From Bacteroidota bacterium (lineage in GTDB: Bacteria; Bacteroidota; Bacteroidia; SXHM01): 64,000 nt of DNA. Under the pieces are notes generated by a model. The model had not been told where the DNA came from. It ran no database searches and was given only the letters and a program-made list of their open reading frames with translations. Shown piece after piece: positions 3,209-11,575 of this stretch. The position numbers and the translations under genes were made by a program. Numbering within the stretch: position 1 is the first letter of the stretch; every line of letters begins with the position of its first letter. Location of the stretch: the NCBI GenBank assembly GCA_947479755.1, contig CANKAM010000010.1:1-64000 (forward strand), in the 5' to 3' direction.

Positions 3209-3619
3209 ATGTATTTACTCACACATGTTTTCGCCTTTGCTACTTGTGCAGCTGTTTTGGTTCACCTCCTTGTGTCGTGTTTAACCAAAACAAGTGGTTT
3301 GCCTCAACACGTTACAACGTGTTTAACTGAAACAACTGTTTTGCCTCAACACGTTACACAGTGTTTAATAAAAACAACTGTTTTTTCTCAACACGTTGCA
3401 TCATGTTCAATTGAAACAACTGTTTTGCTTCAACATGTTACACCGTGTTTAACTGAAACAACTGTTTTTCCTAAACACGTTACACCGTGTTCAATAGAAA
3501 CAACTGTTTTGCCTCAACACGTTACACCGTGTTTAATAGAAACAACTGTTTTGCTTCAACACGGTGTAAGGATGGATATCAAAACGATTTTACCTCCTCA
3601 ACTCCTTTTAAGACATTAA
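3209..3619 (+). CDS. Possible repeat protein (14-residue repeats), coding status doubtful
   Basis: An open frame of 136 codons starting at ATG 3209 spans the 42-bp tandem repeats. Because 42 is divisible by 3 it reads as seven repeats of about 14 residues (consensus QHVTPCLTETTVLP). The first 24 residues are hydrophobic (MYLLTHVFAFATCAAVLVHL), so a secreted or anchored peptide is possible. I recognise no family. The open frame could simply be a by-product of a stop-free repeat whose length is a multiple of three; the internal dyad symmetries argue equally for an RNA or DNA role. An alternative TTG start at 3185 overlaps the -7 box and is therefore unlikely. Confidence 0.25.
   Translation: MYLLTHVFAFATCAAVLVHLLVSCLTKTSGLPQHVTTCLTETTVLPQHVTQCLIKTTVFSQHVASCSIETTVLLQHVTPCLTETTVFPKHVTPCSIETTVLPQHVTPCLIETTVLLQHGVRMDIKTILPPQLLLRH
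3263..3568. repeat. 42-bp tandem repeat array, about 7 units
   Basis: Units begin at 3305, 3347, 3389, 3431, 3473, 3515 and 3557 (the last truncated), each exactly 42 bp apart; a degenerate unit precedes them from about 3263. Each unit holds two dyads: AACACG-6 nt-CGTGTT and AAAC-AACT-GTTT. In the 3305 unit the first dyad extends to 8 bp (AACACGTT/AACGTGTT). Units differ by a few substitutions and no indels. There are no unique spacers, so it is not a CRISPR array. Confidence 0.9.
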
Positions 3620-3855: not shown

Positions 3856-5204
3856 ATGAAAGGTAAAGAAATTCAAAAATTCAAAGGCAATACCTTTTTT
3901 GGCGCTGGCAATGCCATGCGAAAAAATCCGTTGCAGTTTTTAATTAACCTGGATAAAACCAATCCCGACAGTGTTCATTTGAAATTCCTGCATCTGCATG
4001 TTGTGCATATATCAGACCCTAAATTAATCCGGGATGTGCTTCAAACCAATCAGAAATACTACATAAAAATCTGATGTACGTTCATCTGAAACTGTTGCTG
4101 GGCGAAGGACTGGTTACAAGTGAAGGACAATTATGGAAACGTCAGCGGAAAATGATACAACCTTCATTTCACAAGCAGCATATCAATAACCTGTTTGATG
4201 AAATGCTGGGCTGCACCAATGAAATGATAAAGGAATGGAAGGTGGAGGCACAGCAAGGCGGCAAAATTGATTTTGCACCTGAAATGATGAAAATTACTCT
4301 TCAGATTATTGCTAAAACAATGCTGAGTGCAGACTTTAAAACCGAAGCAAAATCAGTAGGTGTTTCATTAACGTATCTGCTGAAAGCCCTTGAAGAAAGG
4401 GTTTTGAGGGGGATTAACTTTCCCTTGTGGGTGCCTACTCCGGCTAATACCGAGTTTAAAAATAAACGAAAAGTTTTAGATGCACTTATTTATAAGCTCA
4501 TAAGCGACAGAAGAAAAACGGGGCATCAAAAAGGCGATTTACTGGATATGCTCATGGAGTCGAGATATGAGGACAATGGTGAGGCCATGCCCGATAAGTT
4601 ATTGCGCGATGAATTGATGACCATTTTTTTAGCAGGACACGAAACCACCGCCACCGCTTTAACATGGACTTTTTATCTGCTTGCCAAACATCCTGAAGTG
4701 TATCAGAAATTAAAGAAGGAAGTAAAAGATGTGGTTGGTGAAGGTGAGCTAACCTTTCAGCATATACATCAACTAAAATATACAAAGGCCTGTATCAATG
4801 AATGCATGCGGTTGTATCCACCCGTTTGGGTAATAGGGCGCAGAGCAACAGAGGACAACATGGTGGGCGACTACCTTATTACGAAAGACACATCCGTTCT
4901 TATATCACCTTACATTGTTCACCGCAATCCTGCTTATTGGAAAAACCCGGATGTATTTGACCCTGAACGCTGGGAAACAGAAGAAGTAAAGCAAATGGAT
5001 AAGTTTGCCTATTTCCCATTTGCTGCCGGACCCAGAATGTGCATCGGAAACAATTTTGCCTTATTGGAAGCCGACATTATTCTTACCAAAGTAATTCAGC
5101 AATTTGATTTTAGTTTCATTGGTGAATCAGAACCCGAAATGGATCCTACGTTAACGTTAAGGGTTAAACAGGGTATGCCTATGCAGATTCAAAATATAAG
5201 TTAA
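3856..5204 (+). pseudogene. Cytochrome P450, split by a one-base frameshift in an A-run
   Basis: Bacterial class P450 of about 449 aa if intact; a heme monooxygenase using O2 and two electrons. The first part (3856-4074, from MKGKEIQKFKG to NQKYYIKI) stops at TGA 4072-4074. The second part runs from 4074 to 5204 and holds the rest: the I-helix AGHETTATALTWT, the ExxR motif ECMR and the heme loop FPFAAGPRMCIG with the Cys ligand. Adding one A to the five-A run at 4065-4069 joins them as YYIKNLMYVHLKLLLGEGL, exactly what the family shows at this point. The stop overlaps an ATG (TGATG, 4072-4076), so coupled translation of two pieces, a -1 slip on AAA, a real null mutation or a sequencing error are all possible. 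All catalytic motifs are otherwise intact. Confidence 0.8.
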
Positions 5205-6575: not shown

Positions 6576-8534
6576 ATGTATGCACTCCGTTTTTTATCAA
6601 CTACCTGTTTATGTTTCTTTTTAGGTGCATTGACTGCAACTGCTTTTGCACAACAGAAATATTCAGTTACAGGTATTAAAGTCGGACATCAGAAAATAAA
6701 AACGAAAAATAATTATGCTTCGTTTAAGTTTTCGTGTACAGGTAAAAAACTTGATAATGATACCTGTATTAGCATCAGCGATTCTACTATTAGTGTTACC
6801 TGCCTTTATTCCGGTAATCGTTCATTTATACGAGCAACATTTAATACCGGTGGTGAACATTATTTTGGGTTAGGTGAACAGTTTTCCTGTCTTGATTTTA
6901 AAAACACAAAACCTTATGTTTTTACCGAGGAGCAAGGTATTGGTCGCGGTGATAAACGGGTAAGCCGGTTTACACGAATGTTTGGTGTTAGCGGAAATGA
7001 ATTTAGTTCATATGCCCCGCTTAATTTTTTCTTTACTGAAAATAACAACGCATTTATTTTTACCGGCAGTCCTTATATCAGTTATGATTTTACAAATGCT
7101 AATTCGTTTTCAATTGAAAGCTGGAGCAATCATTTGAAAATATATAGCATCACTGCAGCTAATCCTAAACAACTGTTAAGTAAAGCCGCCACCCTGACAG
7201 GCAAAATGCCGCTCTTGCCGGACTGGGCTTTTGGAACCTGGCTGGGTTTGCAGGGCGGAGCTAACAAGGTGGAAGAAATTATCGATAAGGCTTTGAAACA
7301 TAATAATCCGGTAACTGCTGTATGGATACAAGACTGGGTGGGAAGAAGAAAAACGCGTTTTGGTTCGCAACTCTGGTGGACATGGGAAGCTGATACAATT
7401 GCTTATCCTGATTTTATAAATTTTTGTAAGCGCATGGATAAACAAAACATACGGGTGTTGGGCTACATCAATTCTTTTATGGCTAATGAAGGCAGGCTGT
7501 TTGAAGAGGCCCGCACAAAAGGTTATCTTGTAAAAAATAAAAAGCACGAAGACTATGTTATAAAAACAGCAGGCTTCCCTGCTTATTTAATTGACCTTAC
7601 TAATCCTGCTGCTTTTCAATGGATGAAACAGGTTATAAAACATAATCTTATTGATGTGGGCTTAAGCGGCTGGATGGCTGATTATGCTGAATGGCTTCCG
7701 CTGGATGCCGTTTTATTCTCAGGCGAAGATGCTTTTGATTATCATAATCAATATGCTGTTGATTGGGCAAGACTTAACAGAGAGGCTATTCAGGAAGCCG
7801 GAAGGGATGGTGATATTGTTTTCTTTACAAGAAGTGGTGCATTGGGTTCTGCTGCTTATTCAACATTGTTTTGGGCAGGTGACCAAATGGTTGACTGGGG
7901 TGAACACGATGGTTTGCCTTCAGCAGTTTGCGCTCTTATTACTTCCGGACTTTCGGGCATTTCACTCAACCACTCAGATATTGGCGGCTATACCACTCTG
8001 GATAATTTATTTATTAAAGTTAAAAGAGATGAGGAATTATTAAAACGATGGATTGAATTTGCTGCATTTACTCCTGTTTTCAGAACCCATGAAGGATTAA
8101 AACCGGAAAGCAATATGCAGGTATATTCCAGCGACTCGATGATGAACTTTTTCTCTCGTTTCGGACAACTTCATTGGGCATTAAAAGATTATTTTAAAGA
8201 ACTTAATATCGAAGCAACTGAAAATGCCATACCTGTGGTAAGAGCTTTGTTGCTTGAGTTTCCGGATGATACCTTAACCTATACCATCAAAGACCAGTTT
8301 ATGCTGGGTGAAGATTTACTGGTAGCACCGGTAATAGAAAAAGGAGCAAAATCCCGACAGGTTTATTTTCCGGCAGGCGAATGGATGAATGTCTGGACAA
8401 ATGAAACGGTACCCGGTAAATGCACCCGGCAAATAGATTCCGAAATTGGTTATCCACCCGTTTTCATCAAAAAAAGTGGAAAGAGAAGCAGTAATTTAAA
8501 AACAGTTTTTGATACATTTAGCAGTTATCGATGA
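6576..8534 (+). CDS. Secreted GH31 alpha-glycosidase of the sulfoquinovosidase (YihQ) branch
   Basis: 652 aa with a signal peptide (residues 1-25, cleavage near AFA-QQ), so periplasmic or exported. The catalytic barrel spans about residues 215-500. Asp369 in GWMADYAEWLP is the expected nucleophile and Asp436 in WAGDQMVDW the acid/base. Against E. coli YihQ, as I remember its numbering, positions align without gaps in this region (offset 36): Gln288, Trp304 and Tyr508 of the sulfonate pocket are kept as Gln252, Trp268 and Tyr472, but Arg301 is Gln265. YihQ cleaves sulfoquinovosides from plant sulfolipid; with the Arg missing, the substrate may be a different alpha-glycoside. No other sulfoglycolysis gene is nearby. 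Confidence 0.85.
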   Translation: MYALRFLSTTCLCFFLGALTATAFAQQKYSVTGIKVGHQKIKTKNNYASFKFSCTGKKLDNDTCISISDSTISVTCLYSGNRSFIRATFNTGGEHYFGLGEQFSCLDFKNTKPYVFTEEQGIGRGDKRVSRFTRMFGVSGNEFSSYAPLNFFFTENNNAFIFTGSPYISYDFTNANSFSIESWSNHLKIYSITAANPKQLLSKAATLTGKMPLLPDWAFGTWLGLQGGANKVEEIIDKALKHNNPVTAVWIQDWVGRRKTRFGSQLWWTWEADTIAYPDFINFCKRMDKQNIRVLGYINSFMANEGRLFEEARTKGYLVKNKKHEDYVIKTAGFPAYLIDLTNPAAFQWMKQVIKHNLIDVGLSGWMADYAEWLPLDAVLFSGEDAFDYHNQYAVDWARLNREAIQEAGRDGDIVFFTRSGALGSAAYSTLFWAGDQMVDWGEHDGLPSAVCALITSGLSGISLNHSDIGGYTTLDNLFIKVKRDEELLKRWIEFAAFTPVFRTHEGLKPESNMQVYSSDSMMNFFSRFGQLHWALKDYFKELNIEATENAIPVVRALLLEFPDDTLTYTIKDQFMLGEDLLVAPVIEKGAKSRQVYFPAGEWMNVWTNETVPGKCTRQIDSEIGYPPVFIKKSGKRSSNLKTVFDTFSSYR

Positions 8535-9079: not shown

Positions 9080-11575
9080 ATGAAAAAAAATCTACAACTG
9101 CTTTTTACCGTTATTATTTCGTTAGCATTTTTCTCTCAAACAAATGCGCAGCAAAGTTGCTCGTTCATTATTCACGTTGATGGTACCAATGGAATTAATG
9201 ATACCGGTTGCGGCAGTGAAGGCACACCCTGCGCCACCATCGGTGCAGGTATTACCAGAGCTGTTGACGAAGGATATACGGATGTGCGCATTTCGGCAGG
9301 CACTTACAACGAAGTTATTCAACTTGCTGATGGCATTAATCTTTGGGGCGGCTTTGATGCGCAATGGGCTGTTAGCGGTTTAACAGCCGTTTACGGTGGA
9401 TTATACAACGGAGAATACTATACCATAAATGCTGATGCTATCAACACACCTACTGTCATCTCTGATTTTGAAATTTTTGCTCCCGATGCTACCATTCCCG
9501 GAAAGAGTTCATACGGGTTGCATATTACCAACAGCACCGGTCTTAAGTTTCAGCGGGTAACTGTTCATGGCGGTGCAGGAGCAAATGGTCTTGCCGGTCT
9601 TAATGGTACTAATGCTACTGTTCTTGCTCTTGTCGGAGGTAATGGTGGAAATTCTGATGAATTCAACACTGCGTGCAATGATGGTAATTCGGGTGGTGGA
9701 GGAAGCGGTGCAACAACATCCGGTTACCCGGCAACAGCAGGAGGTAACGGTGGTCGCGGAGGTTATATGGATAGTGATTGCGGTGGTTTTCCTGATTTTG
9801 ATGCCACTCCCGGAATTGCAGGCTCAAATGCAGCCTATTCTGTTGTCAATAGTTTTGGCTACAGAGGTGCGGGAGGCGGAACGTGCTCAGCAGGCAGCAA
9901 TGGAAATGACGGACAAACCATACATGGTACCGGAGGAACCGGTGCCACGCAGTCTGCCAATGTTGTAGGATTGTTTTTTGCCCCCACAGAGGGCAACGAT
10001 GGAGGGCTTGGTGTTAACGGCACCGGTGGAGGTGGCGGTGGTGGTTCAGGCGGCTGCGATTCGGGAACAGACTCTTATGGTGCAGGTGGTGGAGGTGGCG
10101 GTTCAGGAGGTATTGCTTCTGAGGTTGCAGGTTCAGGCGGCATGTCGGGAGGCAATAGTGCAGCAGTTTTTATGCTATTGTCCACCTGTGCTTTTGTTGA
10201 TTGCGAAATTATTCTTGGCACCGCAGGAAACGGTGGCAGTGGCGGTGCTTCAGGTTTAGGATCAATTGGTGGTTCAGGCGGAATTGGCGGAATTGGAGTA
10301 GGAACAGGTGCAGGCGGAAATGGCGGCAAGGGTGGTGATGGTGGAAACAGTGGTGCAGGTGGTGGTGGTGCAGGTGGTTCTGCTTATGGATTTTATGGAG
10401 ATAATTCGGTTGTCAATCGTTCAGGTACCAACCTGAGTGGAGGTGCAGCAGGAACACTTGGAAATGGTGGATCAGGAAGTCCAGTAGGTCTTGAAGGTAG
10501 CAATGGAACTTCAGGAAGTGTTGAACAGTTCGGTGGTTCTTTAACCGATAACATAACTACTCTTACTTTGGAAGAAGACCCTTGCATAGAAATTATTACA
10601 GCCGACTTATCAGTACTTCAGTTCTGTGCAGGAGAAACCACAACAGTGGATTACAATGCAGTAGGCAGTTTTTCAAACGGCAATACATTTACCGCACAGC
10701 TTTCTGATGCTAACGGTGATTTTTCATCACCTGTTGATATAGGTTTTATTACTTCAACAACTTCTGGAACCATTACAGTGGTTCTTCCGCTTAATACTCC
10801 AAGTGGTGCAGGTTACAGAATTCGCGTAGTGTCATCGGCAACCCCTTCAATAGGAACAGATAATTCAACGGACATTGTTATTAATCCGTTGCCGCCTGTG
10901 ACAGCAAATGCTTCTGTCGCATCCGTTTGTTCAGGAAATCAGGTAACGCTTAACGGTGGTGGGGCAGATAGCTATGTCTGGAATAATAATGTTGATAATG
11001 GAGTGGCTTTCTTCCCAACTGAAAGCCTCTATTACACTGTAACCGGAACTGACCAGACAACTTCCTGCTCCAATATTGATTCAGTATTGGTTTCAGTTGT
11101 TGAACTTCCTGATACATCAGTTATAGTTAATGGCAATCAGCTGCAGGCGGTGTTAAGCGGTGCAGCCTATCAATGGGTAGATTGTAATAATAACTATGAT
11201 CCGCTTGATGGTTTTACTTCAGCATCATTTGACCCGGCAACATCGGGAAGCTATGCCGTAATTGTTACGCAAAATAATTGCAGCGATACTTCATCATGCT
11301 ATCCTGTATTGATTACCGATATAAAAGAGGTGTCATTGAATCATATCGTTACTATTTACCCTAATCCATCACCTGACGGCAGGATTGATATTGCCTGTCA
11401 GTCGCAGGTTGATGCAGCAATTGATGTATTTGACGTAACCGGAAAATTAGTGCTCAGCAACTATTTGCCTGCTCACGGAAAAACGAGTATCCGAATCAAA
11501 GGCAAAGGAATGTTCTTTGTTCGAGCATTGTTTTCTGATGGTAGTGTTAATGTACAAAAGGTGTTGATTTATTAA
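9080..11575 (+). CDS. Large Gly-rich surface protein with type A T9SS sorting domain
   Basis: 831 aa. Signal peptide at residues 1-23, then an N-terminal region (about 27-160) resembling right-handed beta-helix proteins: PCATIGAGITRAVDEGYTDVRISAGTYNE is the usual DUF1565-like opening. Residues 160-500 are a low-complexity Gly/Ser/Asn region with runs such as GGGGGGGSGG. Two Ig-like modules follow (about 520-720) and a C-terminal T9SS type A domain beginning IYPNPSPDGRIDI, with VFDVTGK and a final VQKVLIY. It should cross the outer membrane by the type IX system and stay at or leave the surface. Role unknown; adhesion or a structural coat is plausible. Confidence 0.8.
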   Translation: MKKNLQLLFTVIISLAFFSQTNAQQSCSFIIHVDGTNGINDTGCGSEGTPCATIGAGITRAVDEGYTDVRISAGTYNEVIQLADGINLWGGFDAQWAVSGLTAVYGGLYNGEYYTINADAINTPTVISDFEIFAPDATIPGKSSYGLHITNSTGLKFQRVTVHGGAGANGLAGLNGTNATVLALVGGNGGNSDEFNTACNDGNSGGGGSGATTSGYPATAGGNGGRGGYMDSDCGGFPDFDATPGIAGSNAAYSVVNSFGYRGAGGGTCSAGSNGNDGQTIHGTGGTGATQSANVVGLFFAPTEGNDGGLGVNGTGGGGGGGSGGCDSGTDSYGAGGGGGGSGGIASEVAGSGGMSGGNSAAVFMLLSTCAFVDCEIILGTAGNGGSGGASGLGSIGGSGGIGGIGVGTGAGGNGGKGGDGGNSGAGGGGAGGSAYGFYGDNSVVNRSGTNLSGGAAGTLGNGGSGSPVGLEGSNGTSGSVEQFGGSLTDNITTLTLEEDPCIEIITADLSVLQFCAGETTTVDYNAVGSFSNGNTFTAQLSDANGDFSSPVDIGFITSTTSGTITVVLPLNTPSGAGYRIRVVSSATPSIGTDNSTDIVINPLPPVTANASVASVCSGNQVTLNGGGADSYVWNNNVDNGVAFFPTESLYYTVTGTDQTTSCSNIDSVLVSVVELPDTSVIVNGNQLQAVLSGAAYQWVDCNNNYDPLDGFTSASFDPATSGSYAVIVTQNNCSDTSSCYPVLITDIKEVSLNHIVTIYPNPSPDGRIDIACQSQVDAAIDVFDVTGKLVLSNYLPAHGKTSIRIKGKGMFFVRALFSDGSVNVQKVLIY

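Follow-up and report, generated by a model that had tools for sequence, protein, structure and literature searches.

The sulfoquinovosidase (SQase) branch of the GH31 enzymes usually releases the sulfur sugar from the lipids of plants and algae. In its E. coli member, YihQ, the residues that bind the sulfonate are presumably Arg301, Trp304 and Tyr508, and we take QQRWY and KERWY to be the motif names for the SQase pocket types. Sulfoglycolysis-type genes cluster with the SQase gene in E. coli, Burkholderia, Microvirga and Shinella, and in the last three genera the KERWY-type gene adjoins lactonase, dehydrogenase or TauE-type genes. SftG of Eubacterium rectale is likewise described, in an excerpt of the source, as lying within a sulfoglycolytic cluster and as having measured SQase activity (PMC11968277). 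Passages of another paper treat the YihQ-type enzymes as a single monophyletic group of orthologues whose function is conserved, with yihQ employed to mark the use of sulfoquinovose (PMC13219744). Here, we report the analysis of a GH31 gene of this branch that carries glutamine in place of Arg301. It lies, with an intact open reading frame, in a 64,000-nt stretch of DNA (hereafter the window) from a 3.9 Mb genome, and the nearest named relatives are metagenome-assembled genomes labelled Bacteroidetes. Its features, in window coordinates, are as follows.

6576..8534, + strand: GH31 enzyme of the YihQ branch, 652 amino acids, ATG start (open reading frame; sequence and domain matches)
6576..6653, + strand: signal-peptide-like N terminus, residues 1–26, ending ...TATAFAQ (hydrophobic stretch read by eye)
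7209..8192, + strand: GH31 TIM-barrel domain, residues 212–539, PF01055 (Pfam)
7251..7253, + strand: Q226, equivalent of YihQ Q262 (alignment with YihQ)
7329..7331, + strand: Q252, equivalent of YihQ Q288 (alignment with YihQ)
7368..7370, + strand: Q265, codon CAA, the changed residue, equivalent of YihQ Arg301 (HMMER and alignment with YihQ)
7377..7379, + strand: W268, equivalent of YihQ W304 (alignment with YihQ)
7680..7682, + strand: D369, equivalent of the nucleophile, YihQ D405 (alignment; invariant in 25 sequences)
7881..7883, + strand: D436, equivalent of the acid/base, YihQ D472 (alignment; invariant in 25 sequences)
7989..7991, + strand: Y472, equivalent of YihQ Y508 (alignment; invariant in 25 sequences)
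8229..8474, + strand: GH31 C-terminal domain, residues 552–633, PF21365 (Pfam)

A sequence-only reading of this DNA had assigned the protein to the SQase branch, and sequence, family model, tree and predicted fold all bear out that placement. The best solved relatives found by sequence search of the PDB are SQases (E values of 1e-123 to 3e-116), followed by YicI at 8e-47. The NCBIfam model PRK10426, which we take to be the YihQ model although NCBIfam describes it as an alpha-glucosidase, matches the protein with 742.1 bits against a cut-off of 553. An AlphaFold2 model built from 25 sequences covers the full length with a mean pLDDT of 88.7 and a pTM of 0.89; with Foldseek, SQase chains account for each of its best 23 PDB matches (TM 0.87–0.90), and the next scores 0.74. 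For the tree, we excluded the column of residue 301 and used 34 of 49 aligned rows, dropping the distant non-YihQ rows except for five kept as an outgroup. The node uniting YihQ, the KERWY enzymes and the window clade (29 rows) has support of 100/100, and within it the window clade (21 rows, 99/95) is sister to the YihQ and KERWY rows.

To compare the pockets, we used as reference the translation of yihQ from E. coli K-12 (NC_000913.3), in which residues 262, 288, 301, 304, 508, 405 and 472 are Q, Q, R, W, Y, D and D. These align to Q226, Q252, Q265, W268, Y472, D369 and D436 of the window protein, always 36 positions apart, so that the change from R301 to Q265 is the sole difference among the seven key positions. 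HMMER aligns the motif without a gap (TSFGKRVMWNW over TRFGSQLWWTW). Thus, the retention of the catalytic aspartate pair and the other pocket residues at a constant offset, and the replacement of Arg301 by Gln265, both proposed in that earlier reading, are upheld. Glutamine also occupies position 265 in relatives at 91, 73, 49, 46, 40, 39 and 39% identity, and between the window gene and the 91% relative dN and dS are about 0.05 and 0.22 (a ratio of roughly 0.2). Because of this recurrence and this ratio, Q265 is neither a sequencing error nor a sign of decay.

The window enzyme therefore resembles E. coli YihQ (PDB 5aed, 5aeg and 5oht; TM 0.87–0.88) in its fold, in the catalytic aspartate pair, in the equivalents of Q262, Q288, W304 and Y508 and in its match to PRK10426, and differs from it in having Gln for R301, a signal-peptide-like N terminus and no sulfoglycolysis operon found around it, in contrast to the yih genes of K-12. 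SftG (PDB 6pnr) and BmSQase (PDB 8r56), the second and fourth best sequence matches (TM 0.87–0.88), keep the arginine, in the motif SFGKRL. The KERWY-type proteobacterial SQases (PDB 5ohs, 5ohy and 7ofx; TM 0.89–0.90) belong to the same GH31 branch, but have Lys and Glu at the positions of YihQ Q262 and Q288, and keep the arginine, in 7/7 plasmid-borne sequences. The enzyme is apparently exported, judging by its hydrophobic N terminus; most members of the clade, with Gln or Arg alike, start with a similar stretch, also read by eye.

We then asked how widely the substitution occurs. Among 21 distinct sequences sampled from the window clade (Bacteroidota and Myxococcota), the equivalent of residue 301 is Gln in 10 (Gln type) and Arg in 11 (Arg type), and it is Arg in all eight YihQ and KERWY sequences (YihQ and the seven plasmid-borne proteobacterial enzymes). 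The Trp, the Tyr and both catalytic aspartates are kept in 29/29 rows of these sets combined, and W268, Y472 and the equivalents of both motif glutamines in 21/21 rows of the clade. The Gln-type set is drawn from Bacteroidota, with the addition of one contig (L011) labelled Deltaproteobacteria/Myxococcota, and one Arg-type gene, L037, is 52% identical to the window gene. The conservation tables leave out the window’s own copies (L001 and L003), repeat contigs (L006, the same as L004, and L050, the same as L012), the broken L051 copy and a group of fragments or near-duplicates (L016, L018, L029, L033 and L034). For the plasmid set, 38 records matched and eight were taken, of which one, from Entomospira (L074), had no usable open reading frame.

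The YihQ-like gene is patchily distributed. A class-wide draw of 395 genomes yielded 17 with a match at an E value no higher than 1e-70, including one broken copy; these 17 matches comprise five Gln, eleven Arg and one without a score at the position. In the phylum draw the window gene was the sole match (1/395), and sampling of genomes from the window’s family and order, from the G140 family, and from the genus and order of G178 added no members. In genome G149 (L051/L067) five in-frame stops disrupt a relative of the gene; two other genomes of the genus keep a Gln-type copy.

Gln rows branch among Arg rows in the tree, where the Gln label needs four changes, at least three of them forced by supported branches. 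Constrained-tree tests rejected a single origin of all ten Gln rows (p = 0.00094) and of the nine without L011 (p = 0.012). Several Gln rows sit on long branches, and after removal of long branches a single clade of seven core Gln rows was not rejected (p = 0.467). Because this core clade stays compatible with the data, the count of Arg/Gln switches is uncertain: either Gln appears to have arisen more than once, or it would be old and Arg regained.

We favour the reading, to which we give a probability of roughly 0.5, that the window protein is an exported, retaining alpha-glycosidase in which loss of the cation has left a C6 pocket that accepts an uncharged C6 group; we rank it above an SQase with relaxed binding, set out below. 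The protein is very probably active, because both catalytic aspartates are invariant in 25 sequences and dN/dS (0.05/0.22) is low. The clade would consist of mostly lone, exported enzymes of Bacteroidota and Myxococcota, sister to the classical SQases, in which D369 would serve as nucleophile and D436 as acid/base of a double displacement, as their full conservation suggests. The putative C6 pocket retains the Trp, the Tyr and the two Gln of YihQ around a neutral Q265 in place of the cationic R301. Given this neutral residue, an uncharged C6 group would most likely be preferred, which would fit the move to a neutral sugar that the sequence-only reading had put forward as a possibility. The loss of the cation with retention of the other four residues suggests a gluco-configured alpha-glycoside, such as an alpha-glucoside with glycerol or a lipid as aglycone. 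Q265 and W268 would then hydrogen-bond the 6-OH, and the released sugar would probably be used outside sulfoglycolysis. Other GH31 enzymes accommodate a neutral 6-OH by different means, according to passages of PMC9061262: LlGH31_u1 through His280, and CtGII through Asp482 and Trp517 by way of water. It weighs against a neutral substrate that every row of the clade keeps W268, Y472 and both glutamines, which an enzyme with a wholly new substrate could dispense with, and that glutamine remains able to act as a hydrogen-bond donor to a sulfonate.

These same points are what lends weight to the chief alternative, a possible but less probable one, that the enzyme is still a sulfoquinovosidase. The exported clade would then free sulfoquinovose or cleave SQ-glycerol outside the cytoplasm, with Gln as a weaker hydrogen-bond donor and W268 and Y472 providing the main recognition. 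The unbroken retention of the other motif residues across the 21 clade rows would fit such an enzyme, as would the nearest folds of the predicted model, all of them SQases, and the interleaving of the two types in the tree, as would arise if either residue could nearly stand in for the other. It is harder to reconcile with the presence of Arg in all eight YihQ and KERWY sequences, and with searches of the window’s genome with YihT and YihS, run without a positive control, that gave no match. A conserved subgroup of the NAD-dependent SQase family also differs at one sulfonate-binding position, and its genes lie in SQ-like clusters; in contrast to the window enzyme, that family is unrelated to GH31, the contact concerned is a backbone amide and the site stays intact. 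The GH188 SQases, too, bind the sulfonate by Arg and Lys, as stated in the part of PMC10755693 that deals with them, which argues against a sulfonate pocket without the cation.

Sulfoquinovose could also still be bound if a basic residue had moved, with R261 (in the same loop, four residues upstream) or R/K313 taking the sulfonate, but the columns of the alignment make this improbable. Six columns are Lys or Arg in at least 9/10 Gln-type rows (R124, R258, R419, R484, R491 and R503); these are also basic in at least 10/11 Arg-type rows and Arg in 8/8 SQases, so nothing specific to the Gln type compensates there. A column-by-column search of the 10 Gln, 11 Arg and 8 SQase rows for a basic residue exclusive to the Gln type found none. 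R261 occurs in 8/10 Gln-type rows versus 1/11 Arg-type rows, and R/K313 in 9/10, with K313 in 1/11 Arg-type rows. However, the Arg-type L037 carries R261 and K313 along with R265, and the B. multivorans SQase has an arginine at 313 with the arginine kept, so that neither residue is tied to the loss of Arg; L011 and L047, both Gln type, lack R261, and residue 313 lies near the end of a helix (307–314) of the predicted model. Other positions co-vary with the type, in favour of the neutral-pocket reading. Position 331 is Thr in 8/10 Gln-type rows and Phe in 8/8 YihQ/KERWY sequences; position 370, beside the nucleophile, is Tyr in 8/10 Gln-type rows (L010 and L047 have Phe) and Phe in all 11 Arg-type and eight YihQ/KERWY rows; and position 418 is Thr in 8/10 Gln-type rows, Ser, Asn, Cys or His in the Arg type and Met in 8/8 YihQ/KERWY sequences. 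Because L037 shares T331, W267, W441 and K313 with the Gln type, part of this co-variation reflects lineage, not function.

Slightly less probable again is a pocket for another C6 group or configuration: the sugar might be a uronic acid, carry an amide, or be a different hexose, with alpha-Gal and alpha-GalNAc as examples. The sequence-only reading had listed alpha-GalNAc among assay substrates, and GH31 includes alpha-galactosidases and alpha-N-acetylgalactosaminidases (PMC9061262, in the passages cited above), but the residues checked apart from 265 match those of gluco-configured SQases, and the GH31 alpha-galactosidase 8j53 is far more distant (E 6e-18 versus 1e-123). A degenerate, inactive enzyme, which the broken relative in G149 with its five in-frame stops might bring to mind, is very improbable in view of the invariant aspartates (25 sequences), the dN/dS of about 0.2 against the 91% relative and the confident full-length model (mean pLDDT 88.7).

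The neutral-pocket reading bears on how these genes are annotated. PRK10426 passes six of the eight Gln-type proteins tested (window, L007, L008, L010, L011 and the L063 copy; the exceptions are L012, a cut sequence, and the L065 copy) and both of the two Arg-type proteins tested. Since the model accepts both types, annotation and marker surveys would miss the Arg/Gln change and count the Gln type. The open-access literature that we searched yielded no report of a GH31 Gln type. The usual sulfoquinovosidase label may be wrong for the window enzyme and its scattered Gln-type relatives, and should sulfoquinovose not be a substrate of the Gln type, surveys may over-count its use in Bacteroidota. 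More tentatively, we propose that the SQase branch may hold an exported sister clade in which Arg and Gln have switched more than once, and in which neutral-sugar alpha-glycosidases, perhaps acting on algal or cyanobacterial glucosylglycerol or glucolipids, are annotated and counted as yihQ. If the Gln type rejects sulfoquinovose, this single pocket position would be a clean natural experiment in the gain or loss of an anionic sugar by a glycosidase, and related Arg/Gln pairs, such as L037 and the window gene, make the question directly testable.

The earlier reading had also held that no sulfoglycolysis genes are near. A set of 12 query proteins of sulfoglycolysis, seven of them Yih proteins of E. 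coli and five from sulfo-ED-like clusters, gave no match in the window, in a search that lacked a strong positive control, and among 25 other loci gave SDR-family matches only, in L062 and in L071, a KERWY locus. The absence stands for the proteins queried, but is uninformative because Arg-type genes of the window clade are lone too. As both types are lone, in contrast to the clustered classical SQases, the missing cluster is a trait of the exported clade and not of the Gln type. Gln-type genes elsewhere adjoin unrelated genes, as do Arg-type genes of the clade, and we found no neighbours conserved across the Gln type, context being common to near relatives only. At L010 (2212–10021) the Gln-type gene lies in a same-strand run, with a PaaD-like gene on one side and UbiA, FAD-binding, SDR and HAD genes on the other, and may be co-transcribed with these neighbours. 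A two-component system adjoins the L008 gene and another lies a few genes from the L063 gene; neither these contexts nor the UbiA/FAD-binding/SDR context of L010 recurred beside other Gln-type genes. At L053 (12222–14240), the Arg-type gene of G051 has close to it another glycosidase-like gene, which matches melibiase and the GH31 barrel.

In the window, two unnamed, exported-looking proteins without a Pfam match flank the GH31 gene; the upstream one is common to the 91% relative and absent beside the 73% relative. Slightly downstream (9080–11575) is a protein that looks exported and contains very long runs rich in Gly; the 91% relative has it too. Further features of the window include a split cytochrome P450 (PF00067; 3856–5204), the N-terminal part of which lies in another frame just upstream of the open reading frame at 4074 and ends at a stop, the gene being frameshifted either here or in the assembly. 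At 3276–3563, a 42-bp tandem array of about seven copies (84% matches) runs in frame through a 144-amino-acid open reading frame built of 14-residue units.
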